IMG/VR virus record: IMGVR_UViG_3300042546_000525
Location: 1 to 45,627 of that record
Strand: one strand, 5' to 3'
Length of the DNA: 45,627 nt
Origin: a virus
The translations under genes were made by a program, and so were the position numbers. Below the pieces are notes generated by a model. That model was not told where the DNA came from. It did no database searches and was given only the letters and a program-made list of their open reading frames with translations. Of the stretch, positions 5,948-45,191 are shown in pieces (positions within the stretch are counted from its first letter, which is position 1; every line of letters begins with the position of its first letter).

Positions 5948-6807
5948 GCCGCGGCCTCCGCGCGCTCGTAGATCGCGGTGATCGTGTCGGGTCGAGTCAG
6001 GTACTCGAAGCTCGGCGCCCAGTTCAAGTGCGCGCCGCTGCCGGCCTGCCGCCCGGACGCGAAGGGATCGCAGTTGACGATCTGCCAGTACGCGGTCCAG
6101 AACTCGCGGGTGATCGCCGGGCTGCCGAACTCGGCGGCGCAGATTTCGCGCACGACGCGGATCGACCGCCCGACCTGCTGCCTGCGCTTCTCGCGGTTGA
6201 CTGCCGAGACGTTCGGCACCCTGCCGCCATGAGCCACCGTGAAGGGCGCGGCGTTGAAGGTCTCGATCGCGTCCTCGGTGACAGCCGCCAGCCGTTCGGC
6301 GCGCTCGGCCTTGGCCTTGGCGATTTCGTCCGCGGGCTGGTCCGAAGGCGCAGCTTTCGGACATAGCTCTTGATCTTCTTCTTCTCTTCTCTTCTCTTCT
6401 CTGCTCCGCAATTTGTCCGCATCTTTTGCGGACATGTCGCGGACTTCCTGCGGAGACTTTGCGGACTCCCTGCGCTCGCGCTTGCCCTTCGTGTCCTCGG
6501 CGCGGCGCTTCGCACCCTTACCGTTGTGCTCAGAAAACTCAGGCATTACAAGGGCTTCGCCGTCGAAGCCAAGCCAGCCGACGGAAAGCATCGCGCCAGA
6601 AAGGCCAGGCCAGCCGATGATCTGGTCGAGCAGCTCCGGCGTGTAGCCGGTCAGCTTTCCGTCGGTGCAGTGCACATCAAAAACGCTCCACGCCGCATGC
6701 AGTCCGCCGATGACGCGGAATCTGTCCGCACCAGTTGCGGACACCATGCGGACAACCTTCGGATGCGTTTGCAGGTCGCAGCGCATCTTGATCCAGTCGT
6801 TTGCCAT
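5944..6807 (-). CDS. Replication initiator / helicase-loader-like protein, containing the candidate origin
   Basis: 287 aa. The N-terminal about 95 residues (NDWIKMRCDLQTHPKVVRM, then LDQIIGWPGL) form a winged-helix-type DNA-binding domain seen in phage replisome organisers. A long charged linker follows (EEKRREEE region), and the C-terminal domain ends HLNWAPSFEYLTR before a short helix, as in proteins that contact the helicase. The place just upstream of DnaB supports an O/DnaA-like role. The gene contains iteron-like repeats in DNA at 6415-6466 and 6724-6753, like lambda O containing ori. Confidence 0.8.
   Translation of the reverse strand: MANDWIKMRCDLQTHPKVVRMVSATGADRFRVIGGLHAAWSVFDVHCTDGKLTGYTPELLDQIIGWPGLSGAMLSVGWLGFDGEALVMPEFSEHNGKGAKRRAEDTKGKRERRESAKSPQEVRDMSAKDADKLRSREEKRREEEDQELCPKAAPSDQPADEIAKAKAERAERLAAVTEDAIETFNAAPFTVAHGGRVPNVSAVNREKRRQQVGRSIRVVREICAAEFGSPAITREFWTAYWQIVNCDPFASGRQAGSGAHLNWAPSFEYLTRPDTITAIYERAEAAA
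6374..6402. repeat. Pyrimidine tract with four CTTCT repeats
   Basis: A pure pyrimidine run of 29 bases on the plus strand includes (CTTCT)4 at 6381-6400. It ends 12 bases before the iteron array in the initiator gene. In the protein it encodes the charged EEKRREEE linker. Such a tract can unwind or form triplex DNA and may be the duplex-unwinding element of the origin, which is an inference. Confidence 0.5.
6415..6466. repeat. Iteron array A, candidate replication origin
   Basis: On the plus strand GTCCGCA (415-421 in this kilobase), then TGCGGAC at 6427, CGCGGAC at 6438, TGCGGAG at 6449 and TGCGGAC at 6460. The four direct copies start exactly every 11 bases, one helical turn, and the first forms a perfect dyad with the inverted copy across 5 bases. 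A period of 11 does not follow codons, so the repeats are selected as DNA and not as protein. The position inside the initiator gene matches lambda ori in gene O. Confidence 0.65.
6724..6753. repeat. Iteron array B, same architecture as array A
   Basis: GTCCGCA at 6724-6730, five bases, TGCGGAC at 6736-6742, four bases, TGCGGAC at 6747-6753. The dyad plus 11-base spacing copies the arrangement of array A about 310 bases away. A degenerate third copy (TTCGGAT) begins at 6758, again 11 bases on. It lies just inside the initiator gene start, so binding here could also repress the initiator. Confidence 0.6.
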
Positions 6808-6901
6808 GAACCTCACCTGTCACCCTGAAAACCAACACCGCCAACCTGCAGGGTCAGGCTGTCCCCCGGTCATGACTCCGGGGTGAGGCGGGTGGCGTCG
6901 C

Positions 6902-7054
6902 TCAGGCCGCGTGCAACAGCTCCTGCTGCACAGGCGGCCACCGGTCATGCAGCCGCAGCGCCAGGGCCGCGGCTTCGATCTCTTGTTGCGTGTGCTCGCG
7001 CTCGCAGTGGGCGAGGGCGGCGGCGATGCGCTGCAGGGTCTCGGCGCGCGTCAT
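6902..7054 (-). CDS. Small helical protein, 50 aa
   Basis: Too short to classify. It starts with ATG at 7054 overlapping the stop of the Ref-like gene (ATGA) and is predicted to be almost wholly helical (AETLQRIAAALAHCEREH). The 94 bases between its stop and the initiator start at 6807 hold only a weak GC dyad near 6865-6882 and no clear promoter. Confidence 0.55.
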   Translation of the reverse strand: MTRAETLQRIAAALAHCEREHTQQEIEAAALALRLHDRWPPVQQELLHAA

Positions 7055-7392
7055 GCCTCACCCCGCAGCATCTGTTCCTGCAGCTGCAGCAGCTCTTCGT
7101 CGGTGCCGTAGGCGGCGCGGAACGACTTGCTGCCGTCCATCAAGCTCGGGCCGTACTGAAACCGCATCTGCGACGGCGTGACGCCCGGCAGCGGGTGGCC
7201 GCGGTGATGCCAAAGGCAGAGCGCCACGCTCGCCTCGTGCCCGATCCGGCGCCCGCCAGACAGCAGGTGATGCGCATCGCATCCGATGGTCACCATGCCG
7301 CGCTGCCAGCACGCGACGCAGCGACCGGCCTTGATCTGGCCAAAGCGCTCGGCCTGTGCTGCGGTGATGCGCTCGCTGCTGCCCAGGCTCAT
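7051..7392 (-). CDS. Ref-like RecA-dependent nuclease family protein
   Basis: 113 aa. GRCVACWQRG, GCDAHHLLSGGRRIGHE, ALCLWHHRG and a YGPSLMDGSKSFRAAYG end follow the C-terminal HNH-like domain of phage P1 Ref, a nuclease that cuts DNA within RecA-made displacement loops. Cysteines and the HH pairs are the expected metal ligands. It overlaps the 75-aa gene (ATGA). It probably acts in recombination or in cutting host DNA. Family assignment is by motif recall. Confidence 0.72.
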   Translation of the reverse strand: MSLGSSERITAAQAERFGQIKAGRCVACWQRGMVTIGCDAHHLLSGGRRIGHEASVALCLWHHRGHPLPGVTPSQMRFQYGPSLMDGSKSFRAAYGTDEELLQLQEQMLRGEA

Positions 7393-7616
7393 GAAAGGCC
7401 CCGGCGCGCGAGCTCGGCGCGGATCGTGTGCATGCTGCGGGCGTAGCGCCATAGGTTCTGCACCGCCTGCCATATCGGGGGATAGTCGAGACTTCGGAAC
7501 CGCTTCAGTGCGATCGTCTGCTGCATGCCGGCAAACAGCGCGCGACCATCCATCGCGGCCAGCCGGTTAGTCATCACGGCCAGGTGGCGGAGCTCGTACT
7601 CACTCAGCGCTTGCAT
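7389..7616 (-). CDS. Helical protein of unknown function, 75 aa
   Basis: The chosen ATG at 7616 lies inside the end of the upstream 76-aa gene. The product is helical, with aromatic and basic residues (SLDYPPIWQAVQNLWRYAR). No family is recognised. It is a member of the coupled leftward early chain. Confidence 0.6.
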   Translation of the reverse strand: MQALSEYELRHLAVMTNRLAAMDGRALFAGMQQTIALKRFRSLDYPPIWQAVQNLWRYARSMHTIRAELARRGLS

Positions 7617-7830
7617 GGAGCCACCTGTACGCGCGGGACTGACGCGAGCCGCCGGCTGTCTTGACCTCGCCGGCAGCGACCCATCGGGCAATCAGCTTTC
7701 CGGCTTCGTTGTGCGCGCCGACGTCCACGCCGTTCTCGGCTAGCTCGCGCGCAAGGCCATCGGTGTCGAAGGCCCGCCGGGTCTTTGCCCAGTCACGGGC
7801 GTCGGCTATTTGAGCGGGGGAGAGGATCAT
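7600..7830 (-). CDS. Small winged-helix-like protein, 76 aa
   Basis: ATG at 7830 overlaps the regulator stop. The sequence FDTDGLARELAENGVDVGAH followed by a helix and a basic turn (KTAGGSRQSRAYRW) looks like a winged helix-turn-helix. As the second gene of the leftward operon it may be a second regulator. Function is not established. Confidence 0.6.
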   Translation of the reverse strand: MILSPAQIADARDWAKTRRAFDTDGLARELAENGVDVGAHNEAGKLIARWVAAGEVKTAGGSRQSRAYRWLHASAE

Positions 7831-8081
7831 GCGGCGCGAACTCGAACCTGATAGCCAGTCGCTGCTCCAGATTCGTCGCGCAGCCAATGGAGATCAGGTC
7901 GCAGCTCTTCGCAGCGTACGCCGGTCAGCCGCTCGATCGCGGGGCAGTGGTGCCCAGCGACAGGGCGCAAGCCGCTTGCCCACTGGTGGACCAACGGAGC
8001 AGTTACAGCAAGGGCAGAAGCTAGTGCCGATTTGCCGCCCATCGCTTCGACTGCTGCTTTGATTAGGGGGTTCGTGTTCAT
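7827..8081 (-). CDS. Cro/YdaS-like helix-turn-helix regulator
   Basis: 84 aa. The pattern KAAVEAMGGKSALASALAV, VHQWASGLRPV and HHCPAIERLTGVRCEELRPD is typical of the YdaS/Cro family of phage DNA-binding proteins: a helix-turn-helix (about residues 9-38) then a short dimerisation tail. It is the first gene of the leftward operon. Its own predicted promoter (8089-8117) holds a TAGCnnnGCTA operator between -35 and -10, so it probably represses itself, the facing rightward promoter and the promoter at 16038. The -10 ends 7 bases before ATG, so the mRNA may be leaderless. Confidence 0.85.
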   Translation of the reverse strand: MNTNPLIKAAVEAMGGKSALASALAVTAPLVHQWASGLRPVAGHHCPAIERLTGVRCEELRPDLHWLRDESGAATGYQVRVRAA

Positions 8082-8088
8082 GGTTGAC

Positions 8089-8117
8089 AGAATAGCACCG
8101 CTAACACGACAACGCAA
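8089..8117 (-). promoter_or_regulatory. Leftward early promoter
   Basis: On the minus strand TTGCGT (8117-8112), 17 bases, TATTCT (8094-8089). The operator TAGCACCGCTA sits between the two boxes and overlaps the -10. The next seven bases lead straight to the regulator ATG, so transcription should begin at or next to the start codon. The same -35, the same spacing and a near-identical -10 recur at 16038-16066. Confidence 0.6.
8093..8103. promoter_or_regulatory. Operator TAGCACCGCTA
   Basis: An 11-bp inverted repeat (TAGC, 3-base spacer, GCTA). It lies within the leftward promoter. Four further sites with the same arms are at 8181, 8205, 16027 and 16052. Confidence 0.7.
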
Positions 8118-8180
8118 GAGCCCTCGCAAGTTTTGCCAGCATGCCATCCGCCCACAGAAACATTTGTTCACCAAATATTT

Positions 8181-8191
8181 TAGCAGCGCTC
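8181..8191. promoter_or_regulatory. Operator half-degenerate copy TAGCAGCGCTC
   Basis: Matches the operator at 10 of its 11 positions (last base C in place of A). It abuts the -35 box of the rightward promoter, 24 bases from the next site at 8205. Confidence 0.6.
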
Positions 8192-8219
8192 TTGACTTTG
8201 ACGATAGCTCCGCTAACTT
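8192..8219 (+). promoter_or_regulatory. Rightward early promoter
   Basis: TTGACT (8192-8197), 16 bases, TAACTT (8214-8219). An operator lies in the spacer and overlaps the -10, another touches the -35, and an A/T-rich stretch (8160-8181) precedes it as a possible UP element. It would drive 8259 onward. A Shine-Dalgarno (GGGAGG) precedes the first ATG. Confidence 0.6.
8205..8215. promoter_or_regulatory. Operator TAGCTCCGCTA
   Basis: Perfect TAGC-N3-GCTA dyad within the rightward early promoter, overlapping its -10 region. A bound regulator would block RNA polymerase. Confidence 0.7.
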
Positions 8220-8258
8220 TGTCTCCACGCCGGCACCCCAGCCGCCAGGGAGGACACT

Positions 8259-8492
8259 ATGAACATCGCAGCATTCACGGCCCGCCACGTCGCAGAGGCC
8301 GAAGCACAGGCAGCCAGATACCGCGCCGAAGCGAGATCCGACCGCAAGAAGGCCGACGCGGCGCTGGGATTCGGCGACCGTGCTGGCTATGAGCGCTGGA
8401 TGCGGCAGGCTGCTCGCTGCGATCAGTGGGCAGCCGAGAGCGAGAAGACCGCCGACGACTTCCGGGCGATCAATGCCGAGGTGCTCGCGTGA
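8259..8492 (+). CDS. First rightward early protein, 77 aa
   Basis: Unknown. A highly charged helical protein (AEAQAARYRAEARSDRKKAD), with a strong Shine-Dalgarno GGGAGG 6 bases before ATG. Being the first gene after a strong controlled promoter, it is expected to be made early. Similar short Ala/Glu/Arg-rich proteins head early operons in other phages, with no agreed role. Confidence 0.7.
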   Translation: MNIAAFTARHVAEAEAQAARYRAEARSDRKKADAALGFGDRAGYERWMRQAARCDQWAAESEKTADDFRAINAEVLA

Positions 8493-8611
8493 ACCGCGCG
8501 CTTGACTTCCTCAACAAGCACGGCGACGGCTGGGCCGCGATTGCGGCGATGTGGGCGGTCGCTCTGGTGATCGCTGCCGCGCGGCTGGCTGGTGCTGGGG
8601 TGCTGGCATGA
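8489..8611 (+). CDS. Single-span membrane microprotein, 40 aa
   Basis: The GTG start overlaps the preceding stop (GTGA). An amphipathic N-terminus (NRALDFLNKHGDGW) is followed by one transmembrane helix (about 16-39, AAIAAMWAVALVIAAARLAG). Its stop overlaps the next ATG. Function unknown; an early membrane-acting role is inferred. Confidence 0.6.
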   Translation: MNRALDFLNKHGDGWAAIAAMWAVALVIAAARLAGAGVLA

Positions 8612-9111
8612 AGCGCCGCAGTTGGACCCACGCCGTGCGCTACAGCAGGCATCGCCTGCGGCTTGAACTTCGCAGCCTGCCGAGCTGCATGGACCCGGGC
8701 TGGTCACGTTGGCATGACCAGCAAGCGCAGCAGATCAACATCGCCCTGTGCCGCAACGCGGTCGAGTTGCTGGGCATGTACGCCGACTGCGGCGACATGA
8801 CCGAGGCGGAACGGAACATCAAGTGGCAGCGGCTTCGCCTGCGGCTCAAGGAAGCCGTCGCCGAGACAGCGCAGCGCCGCGAGCTGGCCAAGCTGCGCAC
8901 GCTGCCCGCCTACAAGTCGGCCGACATGCTCGGCAAGGCCCTGATGGCGATCAAGGCCGGGTTCGGCGGCATGCCTGCAAGCGAGGCTTGCGGCATGACG
9001 GCTCACGAACTGGAGCGCAGAATCGACCGCATAGCCCGCTGGGCCATCGGCCTTCAGCTGTTCAGCGTCGCCTGCTGGCTCGCCGTTCTTGTCCTGGAGT
9101 TCTGGCCATGA
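8608..9111 (+). CDS. Tail-anchored membrane protein, 167 aa
   Basis: The ATG at 8608 overlaps the previous stop. The first about 140 residues are basic and helical (HAVRYSRHRLRLELRSL, KWQRLRLRLKEAVAETAQRR), and a single hydrophobic helix near the C-terminus (AIGLQLFSVACWLAVLVLEF) would anchor it to the inner membrane facing the cytoplasm. No known family. It is flanked by two microproteins with membrane segments, all coupled, so they may form one membrane complex. Confidence 0.7.
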   Translation: MKRRSWTHAVRYSRHRLRLELRSLPSCMDPGWSRWHDQQAQQINIALCRNAVELLGMYADCGDMTEAERNIKWQRLRLRLKEAVAETAQRRELAKLRTLPAYKSADMLGKALMAIKAGFGGMPASEACGMTAHELERRIDRIARWAIGLQLFSVACWLAVLVLEFWP

Positions 9112-9239
9112 GCACCGAACCCGACCCCATCGAAGTGACGCGTGGCGTTCTCGCGCGCGCTTCGGTCTGCCTCTTTTTGTGGGGCGTCGCCCTTGGCTAC
9201 TCCGCACACGTGATCAAGGAGCGCATCGCATGTCTGTGA
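9108..9239 (+). CDS. Single-span membrane microprotein, 43 aa
   Basis: ATG overlaps the preceding stop (ATGA). A short acidic N-terminus is followed by a hydrophobic helix (ASVCLFLWGVALGYSAHV) and a basic end, consistent with one membrane span. Function unknown. Confidence 0.6.
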   Translation: MSTEPDPIEVTRGVLARASVCLFLWGVALGYSAHVIKERIACL

Positions 9240-9445
9240 TCCACATTCGAGACTTCGCGTCCGCCAAGGCAGCGCGCGAAGTTGTCCTCCTGCACTGCGC
9301 CCGTCATGGCATGGACGCTCAGCAGGCTCGTCGCCATCTCAGCGCAGCGACACGCGAGCTGATGCGCGGTGGCAGCTCCGGCATGGCCATCGTCCTCGGC
9401 AAGCAGGGCACCTTGGCGCGTGGCGCCATCGGCGGTGCGGCATGA
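9230..9445 (+). CDS. Small protein, 71 aa
   Basis: Starts 10 bases before the end of the upstream microprotein gene, behind AAGGAG. The sequence is mostly helical and basic (AREVVLLHCARHGMDAQQARRH) with a glycine-rich end. Not recognised. Confidence 0.6.
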   Translation: MSVIHIRDFASAKAAREVVLLHCARHGMDAQQARRHLSAATRELMRGGSSGMAIVLGKQGTLARGAIGGAA

Positions 9446-9549
9446 CCAACGCCGAGTTCCTGCTGGCCCTGATCCTGCTGTGCTTCGCGCCCTTCGTGGC
9501 CGTGACTGGCTGGCGATGCTATCGCCGGTGGCGGGGTGACAGCGAATGA
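9442..9549 (+). CDS. Single-span membrane microprotein, 35 aa
   Basis: An N-terminal hydrophobic helix (FLLALILLCFAPFVAVTGW) is followed by a strongly basic tail (RCYRRWRG). ATG and stop both overlap neighbours (ATGA), so it is translated with the helicase gene that follows. Topology should be N-out/C-in by the positive-inside rule. Confidence 0.6.
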   Translation: MTNAEFLLALILLCFAPFVAVTGWRCYRRWRGDSE

Positions 9550-10592
9550 GCTATGCCGATTTCGTCTCGCGCAAGCTGACGCGAGTCCCGCCGACTGGCC
9601 TTGCCGATACGCTCAGCGTTGCGCTGCCTGCCGGCCTGTTTGACTTCCAAGAGTGCCTTGTGCGTTGGGCGCTTGGCCGCGGTCGTGCCGCCATCTTCGC
9701 CGACACCGGCCTCGGCAAGAGCCGCATGCAGCTTTCATGGGCTCATGCAGTCCACGCCGCAACCGGCCATGACGTTCTGATCCTCGCGCCGCTGGCTGTC
9801 GCAGCTCAGACCGTGGAGGAAGGCCAGGCGATCGGCGTCACCGTGAAGCAGTGCAAGGACGGCGCGGAAGTCGAGCCGGGCATCACGATCACGAACTATG
9901 ACCGCCTGCATCGCTTCGATACCTCGCGCTTCGGTGCGGTGGTTCTCGATGAGTCGAGCGTCATCAAGCACCACACCAGCAAGACGCTGCAGATCCTGCT
10001 GGAAGCGTTCGCGCAGACCCCGTTCAAGCTGTGCGCGACGGCCACGCCGGCCCCGAACGACTGGACGGAACTCGGCACGCATGCGCAGTTCCTCGGCGTC
10101 TGCACTCAAGTCGAGATGCTTTCCGAGTATTTCGTCCACGACGGCGGCGAGACGCAGACATGGCGCCTCAAGGGCCACGCCCGAGAGCAGTTCTGGCGTT
10201 GGGTGGCGAGCTGGGCCGCGCTGGTCCGAAATCCGTCTGATCTTGGGTTCGACGGCGGCCGGTATGAGCTGCCCGCGCTCAGGGTCAGCCAGCACACGGT
10301 CAAAGATGACAGCCACGACTCAAGCGAGACGGGGATGCTCTTTGCCCTTGAGGCCAACACGCTGAGCGAGCGCCGAGACGCCCGCAAGCGCAGCTTGGCT
10401 AAGCGGGTCGAGGCATGCGCGGCGATGGTCAACGCAGACCAGCAGCCGTGGATCGTCTGGTGCGACCTGAACGCCGAGGGCGACGCGCTCAAGGCTGCCA
10501 CCCCGGGCGCTGTCGAGATCCGCGGAAGCGATGACGCCGACCTGAAAGAGCAGCGACTGATGACTTCGCGCACGGCCGCATCCGCGTGCTGA
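9546..10592 (+). CDS. SNF2-like helicase, N-terminal part, ended by a frameshift
   Basis: 348 aa. Walker A FADTGLGKS (51-59), motif II VVLDESS (132-138) and motif III TATPAPND are intact, so the first RecA-like lobe is complete. The natural continuation DFAHGRIRVLITKPS lies in the -1 frame: after ATG at 10560-10562 one G seems missing, and this frame reads about nine foreign codons to a stop. The rest of the enzyme is in 10586-10948. Rejoined, the protein would be about 467 aa. Phages often pair such a helicase with the DNA methyltransferase that follows. Confidence 0.8.
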   Translation: MSYADFVSRKLTRVPPTGLADTLSVALPAGLFDFQECLVRWALGRGRAAIFADTGLGKSRMQLSWAHAVHAATGHDVLILAPLAVAAQTVEEGQAIGVTVKQCKDGAEVEPGITITNYDRLHRFDTSRFGAVVLDESSVIKHHTSKTLQILLEAFAQTPFKLCATATPAPNDWTELGTHAQFLGVCTQVEMLSEYFVHDGGETQTWRLKGHAREQFWRWVASWAALVRNPSDLGFDGGRYELPALRVSQHTVKDDSHDSSETGMLFALEANTLSERRDARKRSLAKRVEACAAMVNADQQPWIVWCDLNAEGDALKAATPGAVEIRGSDDADLKEQRLMTSRTAASAC

Positions 10593-10948
10593 TCACGAAG
10601 CCCAGCATCGCCGGCTTCGGCCTGAACTGGCAGCACTGCGCCCGCATGGCTTTCGTGGGCGTGACCGATAGCTATGAGTCCTACTACCAGGCCGTCCGCC
10701 GCTGCTGGCGCTTCGGACAGCGGCGCGAGGTCGAGGTCCACATCTTCGCCAGCGACCTGGAGGGCGCAGTCGTGGCGAACCTGCAGCGCAAGGAAACCGA
10801 TGCGCTGGCTATGGCCGAAGCGCTCTCTGCCGAAACCCGCGGCGCGGTGATGGGAGCCGTCACCGGCAGCACCCGCATGACCAACACCTACCTGCCCAAG
10901 CGCAAAGCAGCGCTGCCGGCGTGGATCAAAACCGAGGAAGCAGCGTGA
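10586..10948 (+). CDS. SNF2-like helicase, C-terminal part
   Basis: The same enzyme as 9546-10592, continued in the -1 frame. It carries TKPSIAGFGLNW and the motif VI element YYQAVRRCWRFGQ, whose arginines complete the ATPase site; the first part alone would be inactive. A GTG at 10586 could start it separately, but there is no good ribosome binding site, so it is best read as the displaced end of the helicase. Homologous sequence begins at 10562 in this phase. No classic slippery heptamer is present at the switch. Confidence 0.75.
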   Translation: MLITKPSIAGFGLNWQHCARMAFVGVTDSYESYYQAVRRCWRFGQRREVEVHIFASDLEGAVVANLQRKETDALAMAEALSAETRGAVMGAVTGSTRMTNTYLPKRKAALPAWIKTEEAA

Positions 10949-11823
10949 TCGAAGTCATCAACCAAGCGTCTGGCGAGAACTGGGCGGCGTTCCATGGCGA
11001 TTGCGTCGAAGTGGTCTCCGGGCTGCCCGACCGGAGCGTCGACTACAGCATCTTCAGCCCGCCGTTCGCGAGTCTCTACACCTACAGCAATAGCCCGCGC
11101 GACATGGGGAATTGCCGCGATGATGCCGAGTTCTTCGCGCATTTCGATCATCTGGTGCGCGAGCTGGCGCGCGTCATCAAGCCCGGCCACAACGTCAGCT
11201 TTCACTGCATGCAGCTCCCGACCAGCAAGGAGCGCGACGGGTACATCGGGCTCAAGGATTTTCGCGGCGACCTGATCCGCGCGTTTCAGCGCCACGGCTT
11301 CATCTACGCAAGCGAGGTCTGCATCTGGAAAGACCCCGTGACCGCCATGCAGCGCACCAAGGCGCTCGGCCTGCTGCACAAGACCATTCGCACCAACGCC
11401 ACCATGAGCCGGCAGGGCATCGCCGACTACCTGGTCACGATGCGGACGCCGGGAGAAGTCGAGGATCGCGTCGCTCACGCCGACCTGCCAGTTGACGAGT
11501 GGCAGCGCCTCGCCAGCCCGGTCTGGATGGACATCAATCCGAACGACACCCTGCAATTCCGGAGCGCGCGCGAGCACGACGACGAGCGGCACATCAGCCT
11601 GCTGCAGCTCGAAGTGATCCGGCGCGGCGTCCGTCTCTGGACGAAGCCCGGAGACGTTGTGCTGTCGCCCTTCATGGGCATCGGGTCGGAGGGCTACGTC
11701 AGCCTGCAGATGGGCCGGCGCTTCGTCGGCGCCGAGCTGAAAACCAGCTACTTCGAGCAGGCCGCGCGGAACCTGCAGATGGCGACCTCGCAGGGGGATC
11801 TGCTCGGGGGCGCGGCTGCATGA
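10945..11823 (+). CDS. DNA methyltransferase (amino-group type)
   Basis: 292 aa from a GTG that overlaps the helicase stop (GTGA). The catalytic motif SPPF (38-41) comes before the S-adenosylmethionine motif region (VVLSPFMGIGSEG near 240), the beta-class order for N6-adenine or N4-cytosine enzymes. The end GRRFVGAELKTSYFEQA is the usual last motif. It likely protects phage DNA from host restriction enzymes; the target cannot be read. The paired helicase may help it reach the DNA. Confidence 0.88.
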   Translation: MIEVINQASGENWAAFHGDCVEVVSGLPDRSVDYSIFSPPFASLYTYSNSPRDMGNCRDDAEFFAHFDHLVRELARVIKPGHNVSFHCMQLPTSKERDGYIGLKDFRGDLIRAFQRHGFIYASEVCIWKDPVTAMQRTKALGLLHKTIRTNATMSRQGIADYLVTMRTPGEVEDRVAHADLPVDEWQRLASPVWMDINPNDTLQFRSAREHDDERHISLLQLEVIRRGVRLWTKPGDVVLSPFMGIGSEGYVSLQMGRRFVGAELKTSYFEQAARNLQMATSQGDLLGGAAA

Positions 11824-12071
11824 CCACTGTCTTCTACGCAGTCAAGAACGCGCAGGGCGAATACGCGCTTGCGTACCTGCTTCGTCCAGGTTCTAAGCCG
11901 CCAAGTGACTCTCTCTTGCTTGCGCCAGCCCGTCCCAGCTGGGTGTTACAAGAGATGGAAGTGCACGGCGATGCAATGGCCAAGTCGATCATCATGCGGC
12001 GAGAGTCTATGACGCCGCGAACTGTAGAGACTGCGATCAAGTGGCTTCATGCGCGACAGGTGGTCGAATGA
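11820..12071 (+). CDS. Small protein of unknown function, 83 aa
   Basis: ATG overlaps the methyltransferase stop. The start TTVFYAVKNAQGEYALAYLL reads as beta strands, and the end (TPRTVETAIKWLHARQ) as a helix. Base composition is a little richer in A/T than neighbours. Not recognised. Confidence 0.65.
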   Translation: MTTVFYAVKNAQGEYALAYLLRPGSKPPSDSLLLAPARPSWVLQEMEVHGDAMAKSIIMRRESMTPRTVETAIKWLHARQVVE

Positions 12072-12346
12072 CCGCCCTCGCCATGATCCCCCTCGCAGCC
12101 CTAGCGCTGGCCCTGCTGTGGCAGCCAGCCCGCCCCGAGCGCATCGGGTTTGTCGAGCGCACTGCGCGCGGTGTCGCGCCGATGGCGCCGCCGGAGAAGT
12201 GGCAGCGCAGGAACCGGTGGGCGGCACTGTACGGACGCTGCACGATCGAGCAGCAGCTGACCCCCGGCGCTTGGCCTTTCGTGCCGAGCGCGGTGCACGC
12301 CCTGCCGAAGTCCGCAATGTTCGATCCGCGGGAGCTGATCAGGTGA
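12068..12346 (+). CDS. Membrane-anchored protein, 92 aa
   Basis: An N-terminal hydrophobic helix (TALAMIPLAALALALLW) is followed by an Arg/Pro-rich soluble part. There is no lipobox, so a signal anchor is likely. ATG and stop overlap neighbouring genes. Unknown role. Confidence 0.65.
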   Translation: MTALAMIPLAALALALLWQPARPERIGFVERTARGVAPMAPPEKWQRRNRWAALYGRCTIEQQLTPGAWPFVPSAVHALPKSAMFDPRELIR

Positions 12347-12546
12347 AAGGGCGAGCCGAGTCTTGGGCGCACACCCCGTTCGCCTTGAACCGCGAGAAGG
12401 CACGAATGAGAAACCCCGGCGTCAACCTCGACATGCCAGTGCGCAGGACGGGCTATGCCCACTGCGAGGGCTGCCAGATCTACCGATACGCAGGGCAGAA
12501 GGTCAACAAAGGCTGGCGCTGCGCCAGCTGCAAGGAGAGCACATGA
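12343..12546 (+). CDS. Zinc-ribbon protein, 67 aa
   Basis: GTG start overlapping the previous stop (GTGA). The C-terminal half has two knuckles, CEGCQIYRYAG and CASC, spaced as in small zinc ribbons. Likely a nucleic-acid-binding or transcription-modulating early protein; the specific function is unknown. Confidence 0.65.
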   Translation: MKGRAESWAHTPFALNREKARMRNPGVNLDMPVRRTGYAHCEGCQIYRYAGQKVNKGWRCASCKEST

Positions 12547-12734
12547 ACACACGCACCATCCCGTGGCACCGAGAAGAGTTCGCCCACGTAGACGGCCATC
12601 CGTACGTCTACACGCAAGAGGGAGACAGCATGCTGATTAGATTCCCCGGGGGTGGCGCCGCAACGCCGCAGGAGCTGAAGCTGCAGGGCTGCGATGTTGT
12701 GATGCCCGAGACAGCGCGGGAGTGGCAGTCGTGA
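12543..12734 (+). CDS. Small protein, 63 aa
   Basis: ATG overlaps the preceding stop. Beta-rich, with HVDGHPYVYTQEGDSMLIRFPG, ending in a short helix. Not recognised. Confidence 0.6.
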   Translation: MNTRTIPWHREEFAHVDGHPYVYTQEGDSMLIRFPGGGAATPQELKLQGCDVVMPETAREWQS

Positions 12735-13858
12735 GCGAACTGACCACGATCGAACGCGCGAAGGCCGCGCTGAAATTCAACGAAACCCGTAGCCGGCTCG
12801 CCGAGCTCGCCGAGAAGTCGGCTCAGCTGGTGAGCATCACCAACCCGGCCGGATACCAGGAGGTCCACCGCGCCCGCATGGACCTGAAGAACACCCGCGT
12901 GGAGATCCAGCGCCGCGGAAAGGAGGCTCGCGAGGATGCGCAGGCGTTCTCGAAAGCGGTGATCGCCGCCGAGAAGGAGCTGGTCGGCGTGATCGAGCCG
13001 GAGGAATCCCGGCTTCAGGGCCTGCAGGACGCATGGGATGCGGCGCGCGAGGCCGAGCGTCAGGCGAAGATCGAGGCAGAGCGGAAGCGGGTGGAAGCTA
13101 TCCAGACGCGGGTGGCGGAGATTCGGATGGCGCCCGCTTCCTTCGGCGGGCTTTCGTCGGCGGCCCTGCGGAGCGAGCTTGCCGAACTTGAAGCCACAGT
13201 GATCGGCGAGGACTTCGCCGAGTTCCAGCCGGCGGCCGTAGCAGCAAAGGCCGAGGCCATCGCGACCACAAAGCAGATGATCGCCGTAGCCGAGCAGCGC
13301 GAAGAAGCGGAGCGCCAGCGCCAGCAGGAAGAAGCCGCCCGCGCCGAGGCCCTGCGCATCGAAGCCGAGAAGCTGGCAGCCGAGCGTGCGGAGCTGGAGC
13401 GCTTGCGCGCCGAACAGGCGGAGCGCGACCGGATCGAGCGTGAGGCTCGCGAGGCTGAGGCCGCGAAGGAACGCGCCGAAGTCGAACGCCAACGCGCAGA
13501 GCTGCGCGCCCAGCAGGAAGCCGCAGCCAAGGCCCAGGCCGAAGCGGAAGCCGCACAGCGGGCAGCGCAGGAAGCGCAGCGCAAGGCCGAAGAGGACGCC
13601 CGCCGGGCTGAGCTGGAACGGCAGCGCGAGGCGGAGCGCGTCGCCCGCGAGGCAGCGGAAGCCCAGGCCGAAGCCGCACGCCAGCAGGCCGCCGAAGCCG
13701 CAGCGGCACGCATCGCCGCCGAGATCGCAAGCGCCACCCTGCGCGAGGCAGCAGAGGAAGCCGTCGGCCTGCTCACTGAGCTGGGCGAAGGCGAGCACAC
13801 CACCACGCGCAAGCTGGCCGCCGCGCTGGCCCGGGACGACATGAAGGAGGCGGCGTGA
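12731..13858 (+). CDS. Long coiled-coil protein upstream of the recombination genes
   Basis: 375 aa from GTG at 12731 (GTGA overlap); GTG at 12722 is an alternative. Residues 1-100 are a helical head (TTIERAKAALKFNETRSRL), and about 185-345 form an uninterrupted Ala/Glu/Arg/Gln coiled coil. Proteins of this shape commonly precede ERF or RecT genes in phages and are thought to act with them, but no biochemical role is established to my knowledge. The compositional bias makes similarity searches risky. Confidence 0.75.
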   Translation: MSELTTIERAKAALKFNETRSRLAELAEKSAQLVSITNPAGYQEVHRARMDLKNTRVEIQRRGKEAREDAQAFSKAVIAAEKELVGVIEPEESRLQGLQDAWDAAREAERQAKIEAERKRVEAIQTRVAEIRMAPASFGGLSSAALRSELAELEATVIGEDFAEFQPAAVAAKAEAIATTKQMIAVAEQREEAERQRQQEEAARAEALRIEAEKLAAERAELERLRAEQAERDRIEREAREAEAAKERAEVERQRAELRAQQEAAAKAQAEAEAAQRAAQEAQRKAEEDARRAELERQREAERVAREAAEAQAEAARQQAAEAAAARIAAEIASATLREAAEEAVGLLTELGEGEHTTTRKLAAALARDDMKEAA

Positions 13859-14607
13859 GCGCGCTTGAAGTCATGCGGGACCAGCCCGCCAACCTGCCCA
13901 CGGCGGCAGCCACGCCGGCGCATCTGCTGCAGATCGCAGTAAGCCAGGGCGCCGACATGGACAAGCTCGAAAAGCTGATGCAGCTGCAAGAGCGCTGGGA
14001 GACGAACGAGGCGCGCAAGGCCTACGTCGCCGCGATGGCCGCGTTCAAGTCGGAGCCGGTGCGCGTGATGAAGACGAAGCAGGTGAACATCCCGGGCGCT
14101 GCACGATTCAGCCACGCCACGCTCGCCGATGTGGTCGACGCTGCGGTCGCCGGCATGGGTCAGCACGGCTTGTCGCACCGCTGGGACGTGACGCAGAGCG
14201 AAGGGCTGATCACCGTCGCCTGCATCGTCACCCACGAACTCGGGCACAGCGAGCGCACTGTCTTGCAGTCGCGCCCCGACGACAGCGGCAAGAAAAACCA
14301 GATCCAGCAGGTCGCCAGCGCCGTGACCTACCTGCAGCGCTACACGCTGATGGCTGCACTCGGCCTGGCCGCCAGCGACATGCAGGAAGATGACGGGCGC
14401 GGCTCAGGCCAGCAGGAAGCGACACTGACTGAGCAGCAGAAAGCCGTTCTGCAAGACCTGATCGAAGCGAACGGACGCGACCGCGCGAAGTTCTTGGAGT
14501 GGGCTAAGGTCGAGCGCATTTCAGATATCCCGCAAAGCTGGTTTGCCAGGTGCAAAGAAGTTCTATCGGCGAAGAAGCCCGGAGGCGTCAATGCTTCCGC
14601 CGCTTGA
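13855..14607 (+). CDS. erf: ERF family single-strand annealing protein
   Basis: 250 aa. The core TKQVNIPGAARFSHATLADV, then GKKNQIQQVASAVTYLQRY and LMAALGLA, matches the ERF signature of P22 Erf: a DNA-annealing protein that pairs complementary single strands. It overlaps the coiled-coil gene and the exonuclease gene, forming a two-component recombination system like lambda Red beta plus exo, used for repair, concatemer formation or replication-linked recombination. Confidence 0.9.
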   Translation: MSALEVMRDQPANLPTAAATPAHLLQIAVSQGADMDKLEKLMQLQERWETNEARKAYVAAMAAFKSEPVRVMKTKQVNIPGAARFSHATLADVVDAAVAGMGQHGLSHRWDVTQSEGLITVACIVTHELGHSERTVLQSRPDDSGKKNQIQQVASAVTYLQRYTLMAALGLAASDMQEDDGRGSGQQEATLTEQQKAVLQDLIEANGRDRAKFLEWAKVERISDIPQSWFARCKEVLSAKKPGGVNASAA

Positions 14608-15217
14608 GGTCTTCCACTGCGAGCAGGGCACGCCTGAATGGTTCGAGGCGCGCCGCAACATCGTGACCGCCAGCAAGTTCGCGACGGTCATGGCCAAGGG
14701 GCTCGGCGGAGGCGAGTCGGTGACGCGCCGCAAGTACCTGCTGACGCTGGCCGGCGAAGCCATCACCGGCGAGGTTGCCGACAAGTGGGAGGGCAACCGC
14801 CACACGGAGCGCGGCAAGCTGCTGGAGCCCGAGGCGCGCGACGCATACGCATTGATCGCTGGCGTTGATCCCGAGCAGATCGGGTTCATGCGGCGCGGCG
14901 GGGCCGGCGCGAGCCCGGATGCGCTGATCGGCACGGATGGCCTGCTGGAGATCAAGACCAAGCTCCCGTACCTGCAGATCGAGTGCCTGGAGGCCGACCG
15001 CCTCCCGCCGAAGCACGTCGCCCAGGTGCAGGGGCAGCTCTGGATCAGCGGCCGGCAGTGGTGCGACTTCGTGAGCTACTGGCCGGGCCTGCCGATCTTC
15101 ATCAAGCGTGTGCACCGGGACGAGGAATACATCGCCGGCCTGTCCGTCGCGGTCAATGATTTCATCGCCGAGCTTTCGGCCATCGTCAACAAATACACAC
15201 AGAGGGAAGCGGCATGA
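14591..15217 (+). CDS. YqaJ/lambda-exonuclease family nuclease
   Basis: 208 aa; the ATG at 14591 lies within the end of erf. GTPEWFEARRNIVTASKFATV and then an acidic GASPDALIG followed by LLEIKTKLP give the PD-(D/E)xK catalytic set (Asp, Glu, Lys) of the YqaJ family, and QVQGQLWISG is the usual next helix. It should digest 5' strands processively to make 3' overhangs for the ERF protein. Confidence 0.9.
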   Translation: MLPPLEVFHCEQGTPEWFEARRNIVTASKFATVMAKGLGGGESVTRRKYLLTLAGEAITGEVADKWEGNRHTERGKLLEPEARDAYALIAGVDPEQIGFMRRGGAGASPDALIGTDGLLEIKTKLPYLQIECLEADRLPPKHVAQVQGQLWISGRQWCDFVSYWPGLPIFIKRVHRDEEYIAGLSVAVNDFIAELSAIVNKYTQREAA

Positions 15218-15636
15218 ACAACTGGAACATCGCCGGCCGCGTCGGCCGCGACGCCGAGCTGCGCCGCACCAGCGGAGACACCGCAGTCCTGAACTTCCCC
15301 GTGGCCTTGGATCAACGGCGCAACGGCGAGAAGCAGACGCTTTGGGTCGACGTCGCAGTGTGGGGTAAGCGTGGCGAGGCGCTGGCGCAGTACGTCACGA
15401 AGGGAACGGTGATTAGCGTTTCGGGCGAGGCCGGTGCCAAGTCCGGCAAGGACGGCGCCGTCTACATGAAGCTCGACGTTGGGATGAGTGGCAATGTCAC
15501 CCTGCTGGGAGGAGGCCAGCAGCAGGACCGCAGCGAACGCCCAGACCGCCAAGCGCAGCGCGCGGAGACGATGCAGCGCATGCGAGCACAGAGCGCACCG
15601 CCCGCGAGCGAGGTCGAAGATGACATCCCATTCTGA
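15214..15636 (+). CDS. ssb: Single-stranded DNA-binding protein
   Basis: 140 aa. A standard OB-fold (NWNIAGRVGRDAELRRT, TLWVDVAVWGKRGEALAQY, KGTVISVSG) is followed by a flexible Gln/Arg-rich linker and an acidic tip ending DDIPF, which recruits host partner proteins. It coats single-stranded DNA and works with the ERF and exonuclease products directly upstream. Confidence 0.95.
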   Translation: MNNWNIAGRVGRDAELRRTSGDTAVLNFPVALDQRRNGEKQTLWVDVAVWGKRGEALAQYVTKGTVISVSGEAGAKSGKDGAVYMKLDVGMSGNVTLLGGGQQQDRSERPDRQAQRAETMQRMRAQSAPPASEVEDDIPF

Positions 15637-15880
15637 GCGCATCCCTCTCACCGCCGACAGCATGGACGCAGCCTTCCGCGCGGCCGTCCTGAGGCAAGAC
15701 CTCGACAAGCTGCTGGCCCAACACGGCGCCCAGATCGTCCTCGGCTGGCACGGTGCGCACGCGAAGCTGCAGATCCAGTTCTCGGACGTGCACGGGCTCG
15801 CGGTGACGATCTGCCAGGTCCGCCGCGGCGGTCGCATCCGCTATCTGACGGAGGCCGAAGAGTGCAGCAGCAAGAGCTGA
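15620..15880 (+). CDS. Small protein, 86 aa
   Basis: Starts 17 bases before the end of ssb. An N-terminal helical part (DAAFRAAVLRQDLDKLLAQH) is followed by beta-like segments (IVLGWHGAHAKLQIQFSD). No family is recognised. Confidence 0.65.
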   Translation: MTSHSERIPLTADSMDAAFRAAVLRQDLDKLLAQHGAQIVLGWHGAHAKLQIQFSDVHGLAVTICQVRRGGRIRYLTEAEECSSKS

Positions 15881-16029
15881 GCATGCCGGATGCGGAGATG
15901 GCGAAGCTGTACCGCGTGCAGGCCGAGACAGCCCTGCGAGACCCGTTCTGGCCGCAGTCTGAGCGCGAGCGGCGCGCGGACTACTACAGGCAGAAGGCCG
16001 AGCGGATCGAGCGCGGCGAAAATCTGTAG
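15862..16029 (+). CDS. Small helical protein, 55 aa
   Basis: GTG at 15862 sits 19 bases inside the previous gene. Residues AKLYRVQAETALRDPFWPQS, then a basic helix. Its stop codon TAG is also the first three bases of an operator (16027-16037), so the promoter that follows begins exactly at the end of this gene. Confidence 0.6.
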   Translation: MQQQELSMPDAEMAKLYRVQAETALRDPFWPQSERERRADYYRQKAERIERGENL

Positions 16030-16037
16030 CGTTGCTA
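16027..16037. promoter_or_regulatory. Operator TAGCGTTGCTA
   Basis: TAGC-N3-GCTA dyad 25 bases from a second copy at 16052, flanking the -35 of a predicted rightward promoter. Surrounding bases are also alike (TGTAGCGnTGCTATTG in both). Confidence 0.7.
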
Positions 16038-16066
16038 TTGCGTTCGGAATGTAGCGCTGCTATTGT
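16038..16066 (+). promoter_or_regulatory. Second rightward promoter
   Basis: TTGCGT (16038-16043), 17 bases, TATTGT (16061-16066). The same -35, spacing and operator placement occur in the leftward promoter at 8089-8117. It would drive 16179 onward with a leader of about 105 bases. Confidence 0.6.
16052..16062. promoter_or_regulatory. Operator TAGCGCTGCTA
   Basis: Perfect TAGC-N3-GCTA dyad in the spacer of the promoter, overlapping its -10. With the copy at 16027 it forms a two-site operator. Confidence 0.7.
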
Positions 16067-16178
16067 TTGAGCCGTGGTGAATGCGCAGTGGCGATGCGGG
16101 ACAGTTCGGCTCAGTAGAGCCATCACAGGCCACGGCCCCCATTGAACGGCGGGCAACGAGCTAACCACGGAGGCATTT

Positions 16179-16463
16179 GTGAACTGGAACAAAATTGAGG
16201 TAAAGCCGACGAGCTGGCGTAAGCGGCTTGAAGCGTGGACGGCGCGCACGGAAAAGCCGCACGCCGTCATGTGCCCGGACAGTCACCCCGCGATTTACGT
16301 AGTAGACAAATGCTCAAGAGGCTGGGCGGCTTCTTATGGCTACCTTTCGCATGCGATTGGCGGCCACAAGACAGAGTTCACCCGGACCGACATTATCGCA
16401 GTGTGCGAGACGCCGGAACTTGCAATGCATGCGTGCGAACAGCATCACGCCGCCGCGCCCTAG
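16179..16463 (+). CDS. Small protein, 94 aa
   Basis: Starts with GTG preceded by ACGGAGG, spaced 6 bases. First gene after the promoter at 16038. Beta-rich centre (PAIYVVDKCSRGWAASYGYL) and a helical end with Cys and His (ELAMHACEQHH). Unknown function. The coding stretch is less GC-biased than its neighbours. Confidence 0.7.
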   Translation: MNWNKIEVKPTSWRKRLEAWTARTEKPHAVMCPDSHPAIYVVDKCSRGWAASYGYLSHAIGGHKTEFTRTDIIAVCETPELAMHACEQHHAAAP

Positions 16464-16472
16464 CCAGGCGCG

Positions 16473-16733
16473 GCACTCTCCGGCCTGCGCCTTGGCGCGC
16501 TGGGCGATCCCGGCGCGAAACCCTGCAGGTGCCAGGGCGCAGGCCGGAGGGTGCAGCACATTGAGAGAGCCGCCCCGCGAGGCGCTGAGCGGGGGCACAT
16601 CCGAACAAACCCGTGTTCCTGCCGATCGCATAGCGCTGTGCGTCGGCAGAACGGGGCGGCTCTCTGAGGGTGTTGCACGCGGGGGCGACCCGCAGGCCGA
16701 AGTGGGATGCAGGGAGGCGCGCCACGTCCCTGC
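16473..16733 (+). ncRNA. Candidate structured non-coding RNA
   Basis: The 350 bases between 16463 and 16817 hold no convincing gene but many inverted repeats. A perfect 14-bp stem (478-491 with 536-549) extends to 19 bp with one wobble. A second long hairpin pairs 551-559 with 670-678 (one wobble) and 564-577 with 652-665 (14 bp perfect), enclosing a 7+4 bp hairpin at 619-649. Two smaller hairpins follow (679-693 and 709-733). The arms at 550-554 are shared by the first two stems, so two folds compete. All positions are given as offsets from 16000. Function unknown. Confidence 0.55.
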
Positions 16734-16816
16734 AGCCGCAGCCAGACCTAGACCCGAGAGGCTCACTGCCATGCCGGACTCGCACCCGGCCCCTCACCAA
16801 TCAACAGGAGACACGC

Positions 16817-17095
16817 ATGACCACGACAAACTACGGCAGCATTCACCCGATGGTGATGAAGGCGGCGCGGGCGATGGCTGAGCACGAAGCGAAGTTGCAA
16901 GGAAGGATGTTTTACGCGCAGAGCTTCATCGCCCAAGCCCGCGCCGCTCTCACCGAATGCGGTGCGCTGGATTGTTTGGAGGCGTTGGAGACGTTCGTTT
17001 GGCCACATCAAGATGGGTGCAACCTGGCTGAAACTGAGCGTCAGGAGAAGGGCCGCGCAGCCATCGCCAAGGTCTACGGGAGCGCGCCAGAATGA
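16817..17095 (+). CDS. Small protein, 92 aa
   Basis: ATG at 16817 is preceded by CAGGAG. Helical (VMKAARAMAEHEAKLQ, FIAQARAALTECG) with the ending EKGRAAIAKVYG. It follows the structured RNA element and may be controlled by it. Not recognised. Confidence 0.65.
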   Translation: MTTTNYGSIHPMVMKAARAMAEHEAKLQGRMFYAQSFIAQARAALTECGALDCLEALETFVWPHQDGCNLAETERQEKGRAAIAKVYGSAPE

Positions 17096-17283
17096 GCAAG
17101 ATTTCACCAACGACACATTGCGTTGCCGACCTGCTAAATGCTCTTGGCTGGCGTTCTGACATGGACGCCCAGCGCACTAATCTAGACGAAGCAATCAGGG
17201 ATGGTCGTTTGTTAAAAGCGTTGTTCTCTGGAGAGGCTGCGCTTCGGGATTTCATTGATGATGGAGCGCGCCAGAATGAATGA
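17092..17283 (+). CDS. Small helical protein, 63 aa
   Basis: ATG overlaps the preceding stop (ATGA). Mostly helical and acidic (ADLLNALGWRSDMDAQRTNL). Lower GC than the surroundings. Unknown. Confidence 0.6.
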   Translation: MSKISPTTHCVADLLNALGWRSDMDAQRTNLDEAIRDGRLLKALFSGEAALRDFIDDGARQNE

Positions 17284-17440
17284 AGAGCAGATAATTCAGA
17301 TGCTTCGCGAACGGTTGCGGATTCGCATTAGGGCATCAACGCAGTATACAGGGGGAGTGGATGGCGGGCCGCTTTACTCAGACTGCACGACTGTTGAGCT
17401 TCTCCTTGACGACGAAGTAATCAGCGAGGATTCGCTATGA
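17276..17440 (+). CDS. Small protein, 54 aa
   Basis: I chose the ATG at 17276, eight bases inside the end of the 63-aa gene, over an earlier in-frame ATG at 17255 because it gives the short overlap usual here. Sequence NEEQIIQMLRERLRIRIRAS then an acidic end. Unknown. Confidence 0.55.
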   Translation: MNEEQIIQMLRERLRIRIRASTQYTGGVDGGPLYSDCTTVELLLDDEVISEDSL

Positions 17441-18576: not shown

Positions 18577-18593
18577 TAGTAGGTGGTGCTCAT
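18345..18593 (-). CDS. Small protein, 82 aa
   Basis: Beta-alpha style sequence (STTYYYAEGIGGRWIETA, FQGTDLFVGIKDNGG). Unknown. It begins 52 bases after a CGTTAAC repeat pair and is followed by the ribbon-helix-helix gene, so the two may form their own small unit rather than belong to the tail operon. Shine-Dalgarno GGGAGA precedes the ATG. Confidence 0.7.
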   Translation of the reverse strand: MSTTYYYAEGIGGRWIETAAKTLAGAKAAASRGQTFQGTDLFVGIKDNGGVVVRVAKKLHRDALDMNATGAWQDVEPSGDFG

Positions 18594-18642
18594 GTCCGTC
18601 TCCCGTAGTGCCAGCCGTTGCTGGCGTGGGGATAGACTCTCA

Positions 18643-18657: not shown

Positions 18658-18684
18658 ATCAACACCCGCAGCGATTGATTGTTC

Positions 18685-43535: not shown

Positions 43536-43546
43536 GTGGCCTCCAG

Positions 43547-45151: not shown

Positions 45152-45191
45152 CTTGGGATTGATTCACCGGCAATTCCGCCAGCGTGCCGCA

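Follow-up and report, generated by a model that had tools for sequence, protein, structure and literature searches.

An operator dyad shared by three promoters of a phage genome and probably read by its YdaS-type Cro

We analyzed a lambda-like phage genome of 45,627 nucleotides (IMG/VR virus record IMGVR_UViG_3300042546_000525; this whole stretch is called the window) and found one operator type at its PR-like promoter, its PL-like promoter and a third promoter further down the rightward arm. The sites, their spacing, the promoter geometry, the gene positions and the association of this operator with YdaS genes across phages were established. On this evidence, TAGCnnnGCTA is probably the OR/OL operator of the phage, read by its YdaS-type Cro (7827-8081), which would run the early network. 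The relevant features are listed below, with the promoters read from the sequence and the operators scored with a 17-column site matrix built from 166 sites of other phages only.

1-127, direct terminal repeat of 127 bp; other copy at 45501-45627
7827-8081, minus strand, 84-aa Cro-like regulator of the YdaS type; heads the leftward early (PR-like) operon
8089-8117, minus strand, PR-like promoter TTGCGT-17-TATTCT; -35 at 8117-8112, -10 at 8094-8089
8093-8103, no strand, operator TAGCACCGCTA in the PR spacer; 16.3 bits
8181-8191, no strand, operator TAGCAGCGCTC, one mismatch, directly before the PL -35; 17.2 bits
8192-8219, plus strand, PL-like promoter TTGACT-16-TAACTT; -35 at 8192-8197, -10 at 8214-8219
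8205-8215, no strand, operator TAGCTCCGCTA in the PL spacer; 13.1 bits
8259-8492, plus strand, 77-aa gene without a family, the first in the rightward early arm
13855-14607, rightward arm, Erf-like gene
14543-15217, rightward arm, YqaJ exonuclease gene
15214-15636, rightward arm, SSB gene
15862-16029, plus strand, 55-aa ORF upstream of the distal promoter; the TAG of the 16027 operator serves as its stop codon
16027-16037, no strand, distal operator TAGCGTTGCTA directly before the -35; top score of the genome, 22.4 bits
16038-16066, plus strand, distal promoter TTGCGT-17-TATTGT; -35 at 16038-16043, -10 at 16061-16066
16052-16062, no strand, distal operator TAGCGCTGCTA in the distal promoter spacer; 21.3 bits
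16179-16463, plus strand, distal unit protein of 94 aa, starting at a GTG after GGAGG

In all three promoters, the spacer is occupied by a dyad that reaches into the -10, and at the PL-like and distal promoters a second dyad abuts the -35, giving dyad-to-dyad distances of 24 and 25 bp, respectively. Reading the sequence bore out an earlier note's claim that the leftward promoter and the one at 16038 share TTGCGT-17-TATT(C/G)T with the dyad in the spacer. The PR-like -10 ends 7 nt before the regulator ATG, and a leaderless mRNA is predicted for the regulator. A generic sigma-70 scan listed none of the three promoters; between 7800 and 19200 it gave a single match (1.3 expected), the leftward TCGTCA-16-TAAAAT at 8204-8177, with the 8181 dyad in its spacer.

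Exact copies of the motif, TAGCNNNGCTA, occur four times in the whole 45.6-kb genome (8093, 8205, 16027 and 16052), all at these promoters, as does the 8181 dyad with its one mismatch to TAGCnnnGCTA. The earlier note had placed the near-perfect copies only at predicted promoters among the places it checked; this holds for the exact copies, but a genome-wide one-mismatch scan gave six further copies, of which only 8181 is promoter located and five (1127, 9511, 10391, 21910 and 28188) lie elsewhere, and the total of 10 shows no excess over chance (6.9 ± 2.5; at least 10 in 12 of 100 shuffles). Dinucleotide shuffles had a mean of 0.099 exact copies, and neither four copies nor two exact dyads less than 30 bp apart arose in any of 1,000. 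When the genome was scanned with the matrix, the five promoter dyads were the top five sites and there was no sixth above 8 bits. Shuffled genomes (n = 60) averaged 2.7 sites above 8 bits with a best score of 20.0 bits, so by score alone only the distal pair beats every shuffle; the 8093, 8181 and 8205 dyads stand out through promoter clustering, not score. The shuffles and the matrix scan together ruled out a chance origin of the motif. Our literature search matched neither the exact string TAGCnnnGCTA nor a description of such an operator, and we do not claim the motif as unpublished. Cro helices and OR half-sites were reportedly the subject of work by Hall, Lefevre and Cordes in 2005.

The same arrangement recurs in other phages. 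A tandem operator-promoter pattern matched 106 stretches in viral contigs, and a YdaS-family gene above the Pfam cutoff was present in 41 of 47 longer pattern-selected records versus 4 of 44 controls, although near-duplicates among the selected records make 41 of 47 an overstatement of independent cases. At an E value of ≤0.001, the counts were 45/47 and 16/44; both comparisons leave out the window row. In 38 of those 41 records, the YdaS domain was preceded by an exact site at a distance of at most 100 bp. An earlier profile count, covering 80 of the 106 stretches, had placed a YdaS-profile match within 200 bp of 27 of 83 sites and within 2 kb of 63 of 83, but that profile also recruits CI-like proteins and we prefer the Pfam count. 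The helix comparison, the reciprocal test and the distal-pair scan drew on all 106 stretches. In the first of these, position 7 of the recognition helix was Gln in 69 of 73 operator-adjacent proteins versus 11 of 31 proteins without the operator. In phages chosen only by the DNA pattern, the operator is thus closely followed by a YdaS-type gene, which lends comparative support to the earlier proposal that the YdaS-like regulator is the likely binder. TAGCnnnGCTA appears to serve as OR/OL operator in a widespread class of phages with a YdaS-type Cro.

The reciprocal test set a boundary on this class. Similarity to the regulator gave 35 loci, from which we left out three already known, all of which do carry sites (L007 and L008, which are the same phage, and L108, with one-mismatch copies). 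Two of the 32 new loci were too near a contig end, and among the remaining 30 protein-found YdaS relatives none had an upstream matrix score of at least 12 (random windows, 3/1,500); several of these operator-less relatives share the Gln at position 7 of the helix. Similarity to YdaS is by itself no predictor of TAGCnnnGCTA, and our claim is therefore limited to the recognition-helix class. In the phage Cy-LDV1 (L005), the regulator is 58% identical and three one-mismatch copies lie in the same gap, while in L006 and L010 it is 36% identical and a different dyad, CCTACGnnnCGTAGG, is paired at the same places.

The regulator itself has the recognition helix VTAPLVHQW and matched the Pfam family YdaS_toxin (PF15943) at 1.5e-18 (66.8 bits against a cutoff of 30) and P22_Cro at 1.5e-4. 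It lies on the same strand as the downstream replication genes and heads that arm, divergent to the other. As expected of a YdaS-type Cro, dyads lie in its own promoter and in PL. The searches turned up no cI and no integrase, so the sole known reader of the sites in this phage would be the YdaS-like protein.

The terminal repeat indicates that the genome is probably complete, and its ends probably join into a circle of 45,500 bp; contig L008 spans the junction. The integrase and repressor profiles PF00589, PF01381, PF00717 and PF00239 had no match in the genome, whereas PF00589 scored above the cutoff in L006 and L010. Searching by tblastn with the cI-like, integrase and xis proteins of L006 gave no match, and 170 ORFs from both strands outside the structural region had no repressor or integrase family in Pfam. 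These ORFs (103 + 67) were at least 60 aa long and lay inside 1-8300, 8200-19600 or 40900-45627 (180, less ten scanned earlier, the regulator's ORF included), leaving out the structural region at 19.6-40.9 kb and ORFs that crossed a limit. Pfam also gave one weak winged-helix match in the genome (HTH_24, 8.5e-4), which tempers this result. PF01381 and PF00717 likewise failed to detect the cI-like gene in L006, so profile-based tests for cI are imperfect, and the apparent absence of cI rests on the tblastn search, on the scanned ORFs and on an OR-OL interval too short for a gene. The PR-side and PL-side sites are 112 bp apart, a spacing shared by L007 (99.4%) and L008 (99.99%).

These data bear on the leading alternative, that the sites are retained for a CI-type repressor, either an unrecognized phage gene or that of a same-immunity resident prophage, with Cro reading only part of them. 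Many phages with the TAGCnnnGCTA operator do have a CI-type repressor gene between two site clusters: S24 repressors were found in 20 of 50 records searched, 17 of them between two exact-site clusters, and the distal sites are the top scorers for a matrix trained on phages of this kind. The L006 gene that escaped both profiles speaks for a repressor going unrecognized. In the accessible parts of the reports, the Cro proteins of phi-KO2 and PY54 bound only one operator (PMC4997575, PMC4488713), that of phi-KO2 being OR3 while CB reads all sites; such single-operator binding by some Cro proteins counts against the regulator reading all five sites. Against a retained CI system stand the tblastn result, the 170 ORFs without a repressor family, the self-closing genome and a 112-bp interval with no room for a gene. 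We consider this alternative unlikely, and reading of the sites by Cro remains the preferred explanation.

The distal promoter is PL-like and carries the two top-scoring operators 7.8 kb from the PR/PL region. It precedes the 94-aa protein, which had no match in Pfam, PHROG or a phage tblastn search. None of the 41 other YdaS records had an exact pair as distant as that of the window, a long exact distal pattern matched no stretch, and pairs with at most one mismatch, a spacing of 24 to 25 bp and a distance of over 5 kb to the pattern match occurred at 0 of 106 loci (1.0 Mb). That the pair arose by chance, or is a relic PL duplicate without promoter activity, would fit its presence in only two of six distinct holders of the 55-aa ORF (the window and L014; absent in L005, L006, L010 and L249). 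This ORF is conserved in relatives both with and without the distal promoter, and L108 likewise lacks the pair at the corresponding place. However, two exact dyads within 30 bp never arose in the shuffles, and L014 has the pair with one mismatch per dyad, 25-bp spacing and TTGCGT-17-TACAGT before a different small gene; its dyads and hexamers are little changed, while the intervening bases and the downstream gene differ. We regard a chance or relic pair as improbable, and the distal promoter appears to be a PL-type cassette that was added in front of small accessory genes.

Other readings of the distal unit were rejected. A lambda CII-type promoter has TTGC-N6-TTGC across the -35, and by eye the distal promoter reads TTGC-N2-TTGC. 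Visual inspection had suggested tRNA-like elements close to the distal unit in relatives, but ARAGORN detected none in the window, L005, L006, L010, L014 or L249. The leader of the distal unit does not exceed shuffles in stability (z = 0.49), and Rfam at gathering scores had no match in the window. As to the host, the exonuclease matched only nine loci in genome contigs, 50 to 57% identical, all under titles of rhizobia-type genera or Rhizobiales bacterium (one Brucella species).

It is very unlikely that the YdaS-like protein, though no other regulator was found to have sites at both arms, is the sole lysogeny repressor of a phage that persists without integration, given its cro position on the replication-gene strand behind an operator that would shut its own gene off, the failure to find an integrase or serine recombinase, and the absence of any partition family from the scans run against Pfam and PHROG.

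For the network run by Cro, we infer binding, repression and an order of filling as follows. Early PR transcription would yield Cro, which would then occupy the PR spacer dyad and repress its own synthesis. Cro would also occupy the PL pair and, 7.8 kb along the PL arm, the distal pair, covering both the -35 and the -10; as its level rose, all three early units would be shut off. The distal pair would be occupied first because it is the best matrix match. Since a cI-type gene and an integrase were not found, the network most likely represents a lytic-only remnant run by Cro alone. More tentatively, a lambda-like lineage may have dropped cI and integrase but kept and extended its operators, leaving Cro alone to time all early transcription. 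A portable PL-like promoter with two strong operators, inserted in the recombination arm, would then place exchangeable small genes, such as that for 94 aa in the window and an unrelated one in L014, under this control and would at the same time expose them to the CI of co-resident prophages of the same operator class.

These results suggest that a large class of YdaS-type Cro proteins, which still carry the toxin name in Pfam, follows a simple operator code in which TAGCnnnGCTA goes together with a Gln close to the recognition helix end. The window, a probably complete natural genome with Cro as the predicted reader and no recognizable CI, would permit a direct test of Cro autorepression and operator hierarchy in a phage probably unable to lysogenize, and of promoter cassettes that place accessory genes under an immunity network.

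Among known systems, the nearest solved sequences to the 84-aa regulator are the prophage Cro 3bd1 (E = 2.6e-5) and XPH1, 5w8y (E = 5e-6), which we take to be of Xylella origin; the match is in protein sequence and spans only about residues 7 to 65. In the lambda OR/OL switch, the same operators serve PR and PL and Cro represses itself, as we propose here. Lambda differs in that its bistable CI/Cro switch has cI between OR and OL, where we found a 112-bp gap and no cI homologue, and in its integrase, for which PF00589 and PF00239 had no match in the window; the window also has a third operator-bearing promoter. Cluster A mycobacteriophage stoperators also place repressor sites beyond the immunity region, but they number 20 to 30, are asymmetric and transcription oriented, and come without evidence of a Cro analogue in the accessible part of the source (PMC6550527); the window has five symmetric dyads at three promoters. 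The Rac prophage RacR/YdaS system, as far as the available text goes, has short dyad repeats between the repressor gene and ydaS, with a different dyad (GCCTAA/TTAGGC) and a RacR repressor that is present and essential (PMC5700373). For CP-933P PaaR2/YdaS of E. coli O157:H7, the portion of the report at hand gives another operator sequence and a CI equivalent, PaaR2, and describes no third promoter beyond PR, PRM and PL (PMC8630535). In that same portion, CP-933P resembles the window in having a YdaS-type Cro before the PR operon and regularly spaced dyads over PR and PL, and its YdaS gives a footprint on the PR/PRM region and represses PR, PRM and PL in reporters (PMC8630535).

Exact copies of the operator dyad TAGCNNNGCTA occurred only at 8093, 8205, 16027, and 16052 when we scanned the whole window; the copy at 8181 has one mismatch, and five further one-mismatch copies are scattered in the window. 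Chance predicted 0.099 exact copies per shuffle, and none of 1,000 shuffles contained four copies or an exact pair within 30 bp. Exact copies are thus far above chance, and these results confirm the earlier note's claim of five near-perfect dyads at three promoters. In the whole-genome one-mismatch scan suggested there, the exact copies are confined to promoters, and the total with up to one mismatch (10, versus 6.9 ± 2.5 by chance) is not above chance. A site matrix trained on 166 sites, all from other phages, placed exactly five window sites above 8 bits (8093, 8181, 8205, 16027, and 16052). Sixty shuffles averaged 2.7 sites above 8 bits, with a best score of 20.0, and the distal pair alone (22.4 and 21.3 bits) beat all 60 by score. 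The features concerned are as follows.

7827 to 8081, minus strand: 84-aa YdaS-type Cro-like regulator
Gap between the early arms, 177 bp: contains PR and PL
8089 to 8117, leftward: early promoter PR
8192 to 8219, rightward: early promoter PL
16038 to 16066: distal promoter

PR has a single dyad within its spacer, while PL has one dyad ahead of the −35 and a second inside the spacer. The distal promoter is laid out like PL, with a dyad ahead of the −35 and another in the spacer, 25 bp apart. A simple, generic promoter scan listed none of the three; its only hit in 7800 to 19200 was a leftward TCGTCA-16-TAAAAT at 8204 to 8177, with an extended −10 and the 8181 dyad in its spacer; this could be a second leftward promoter.

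The window (66.8% GC, one IMG/VR record) most likely closes to a genome of 45,500 bp, because both ends carry a 127-bp direct repeat and the contig L008, 99.99% identical to the window over 8.5 kb, spans the end junction. From the maps of the annotated relatives Cy-LDV1 (BK059895; L005) and Cr-LKS3 (OM373202; L006), which run in the opposite orientation, and from family scans, the 84-aa regulator heads an arm with a replication initiator and DnaB helicase, and the arm from 8259 onwards carries Erf-like, YqaJ exonuclease, and SSB genes. Judged by gene order, the regulator occupies the place of cro. Pfam matches to Lar, a protein of restriction alleviation (2.2e-7), and to a C5 cytosine methylase (1.1e-15) suggest that the leftward or late arm encodes anti-restriction functions. 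A 379-aa ORF (17437 to 18576) matches two separate stretches of the relative L010 and is not a recognizable integrase; it may not be a single gene. Both BK059895 and OM373202 are recorded as Cylindrospermopsis (cyanobacterial) phages. Cylindrospermopsis GC lies far below the 67% of Cy-LDV1, so the host assignment may be worth checking.

A loose pattern of the tandem operator layout found 106 stretches in viral contigs. We examined the 47 records of about 23 kb or more among 80 listed loci, with the longer Erf/YqaJ relatives (44 records) as controls. YdaS_toxin was over the cut-off in 41 of the 47 records (window row left out) versus 4 of 44 controls, and at E ≤ 0.001 in 45/47 versus 16/44; some pattern-selected records are near-duplicates, so independent cases are fewer than counted. 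Of these 41 records, 38 had an exact site no more than 100 bp ahead of the YdaS domain, and 37 had a further exact site 675 to 6,824 bp upstream of it. Among 50 records searched for S24 repressors, 20 had one over the cut-off; the window, Cy-LDV1, and Cr-LKS3 were in the set and had none. In our own comparison, the repressor sat between two clusters of exact sites in 17 of the 20. The Cy-LDV1 regulator is 58% identical to the window's, and one-mismatch TAGCNNNGCTA copies are kept in the corresponding gap. The association of 41/47 versus 4/44 supports the proposal that the YdaS-like regulator acts at the three promoters. On sequence evidence, the regulator at 7827 to 8081 is supported, not proven, as the reader of the TAGCNNNGCTA sites.

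Of 73 proteins encoded next to the operator, 69 have Gln at position 7 of the recognition helix, versus 11 of 31 others; the sets include CI-like proteins and related sequences. The Cr-LKS3 and L010 regulators are 36% identical to the window's, with His replacing Gln, and these phages carry CCTACGnnnCGTAGG pairs, in which some copies deviate by as many as two mismatches, at the places of the window dyads; at ≤1 mismatch, CCTACGnnnCGTAGG occurs nowhere else in the whole Cr-LKS3 record or in 20.8 kb of L010. In these relatives, which have a cI-like gene, the pairs are 25 to 26 bp apart at both early promoters (L006:32185-33048 and L010:3970-4834). Thirty other YdaS relatives, identified through protein similarity, lack a TAGCNNNGCTA-type operator, which counts against a simple rule. 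In a closer look at 24 of these, position 7 is Glu or Asp in many, which also have a TAGGC-type dyad pair; in some it is Gln, and there we could find no repeated dyad. TAGGC-type pairs 24 bp apart lie upstream of the YdaS gene in the Glu/Asp loci L208, L209, L210, L212, L215, L217, L220, L224, L226, and L233. A Glu/Asp helix with this dyad is a possible second entry in an operator code.

The window genome gave no match to PF00589, PF01381, PF00717, or PF00239, and tblastn at 1e-3 with the Cr-LKS3 cI-like, integrase, and excisionase proteins gave no hit. No repressor or integrase family appeared when 170 ORFs from outside the structural region were scanned with Pfam; there was one weak winged-helix match. 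PF01381 and PF00717 are weak tests, because both also missed the cI-like gene of Cr-LKS3. An integrase is over the cut-off in Cr-LKS3 and L010, and that of Cy-LDV1 (L005:23658-24056) is a short remnant below the Pfam cut-off; Cy-LDV1 is apparently intermediate between the integrase-bearing relatives and the window. In Cy-LDV1 and the partial contig L108, OR and OL are closely set with no cI gene between. In the window, the PR and PL sites lie 112 bp apart, and two near-identical contigs have this spacing too. We infer that the window phage belongs to a lytic-only branch retaining Cro and its operators.

Upstream of the distal promoter are SSB and a 55-aa ORF; downstream of it is a 94-aa ORF, for which a search found no relatives. 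Six distinct phages hold the 55-aa ORF (the window, L014, Cy-LDV1, Cr-LKS3, L010, and L249), and the operator pair is present in two, the window and L014. The L014 pair has one mismatch in each dyad. L014 retains the TTGCGT hexamer, a spacer of 17 bp, and dyads 25 bp apart, but its intervening bases and downstream gene are different; the distal promoter therefore resembles a promoter cassette whose cargo can be exchanged. Among 41 other records with the operator, none had an exact pair over 7 kb away from YdaS, and three had a single far site. With ≤1 mismatch allowed per dyad, no pair lay over 5 kb from the pattern hit in any of the 106 loci, each covering up to 15 kb. Behind the distal unit, 16464 to 16780 is GC-rich and apparently noncoding, and by eye it has blocks in common with the matching region of Cy-LDV1, Cr-LKS3, L010, and L249; Rfam gave no match for the window, and the relatives showed no tRNA.

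The window PR −10 ends 7 nt ahead of the regulator's ATG. Read by eye, the start codon follows the PR −10 by 6 to 8 nt in 17 of 18 YdaS- or Cro-like ORFs, a count restricted to ORFs whose start lies no more than 20 nt from the −10. This distance leads to the prediction that leaderless cro mRNAs characterize the class with this operator. Loci with the short distance include window 8079-8094, L100, L108, L109, L115, L118, L124, L125, L128, L132, and others. We propose that PR, PL, and the distal promoter would all fire early after infection. Cro, probably translated from leaderless mRNA, would then build up and turn off all three, the distal promoter first if affinity follows matrix scores.

For CP-933P, a YdaS protein is reported to repress PR, PRM, and PL (PMC8630535). 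What would be new is YdaS-type repression in this phage and at a third promoter as well. The phi-KO2 and PY54 Cro proteins are reported to bind a single site (PMC4997575, PMC4488713), a reason for caution. The window phage carries a lambda-type Cro/operator system that has no detectable CI and adds a third operator-bearing promoter.
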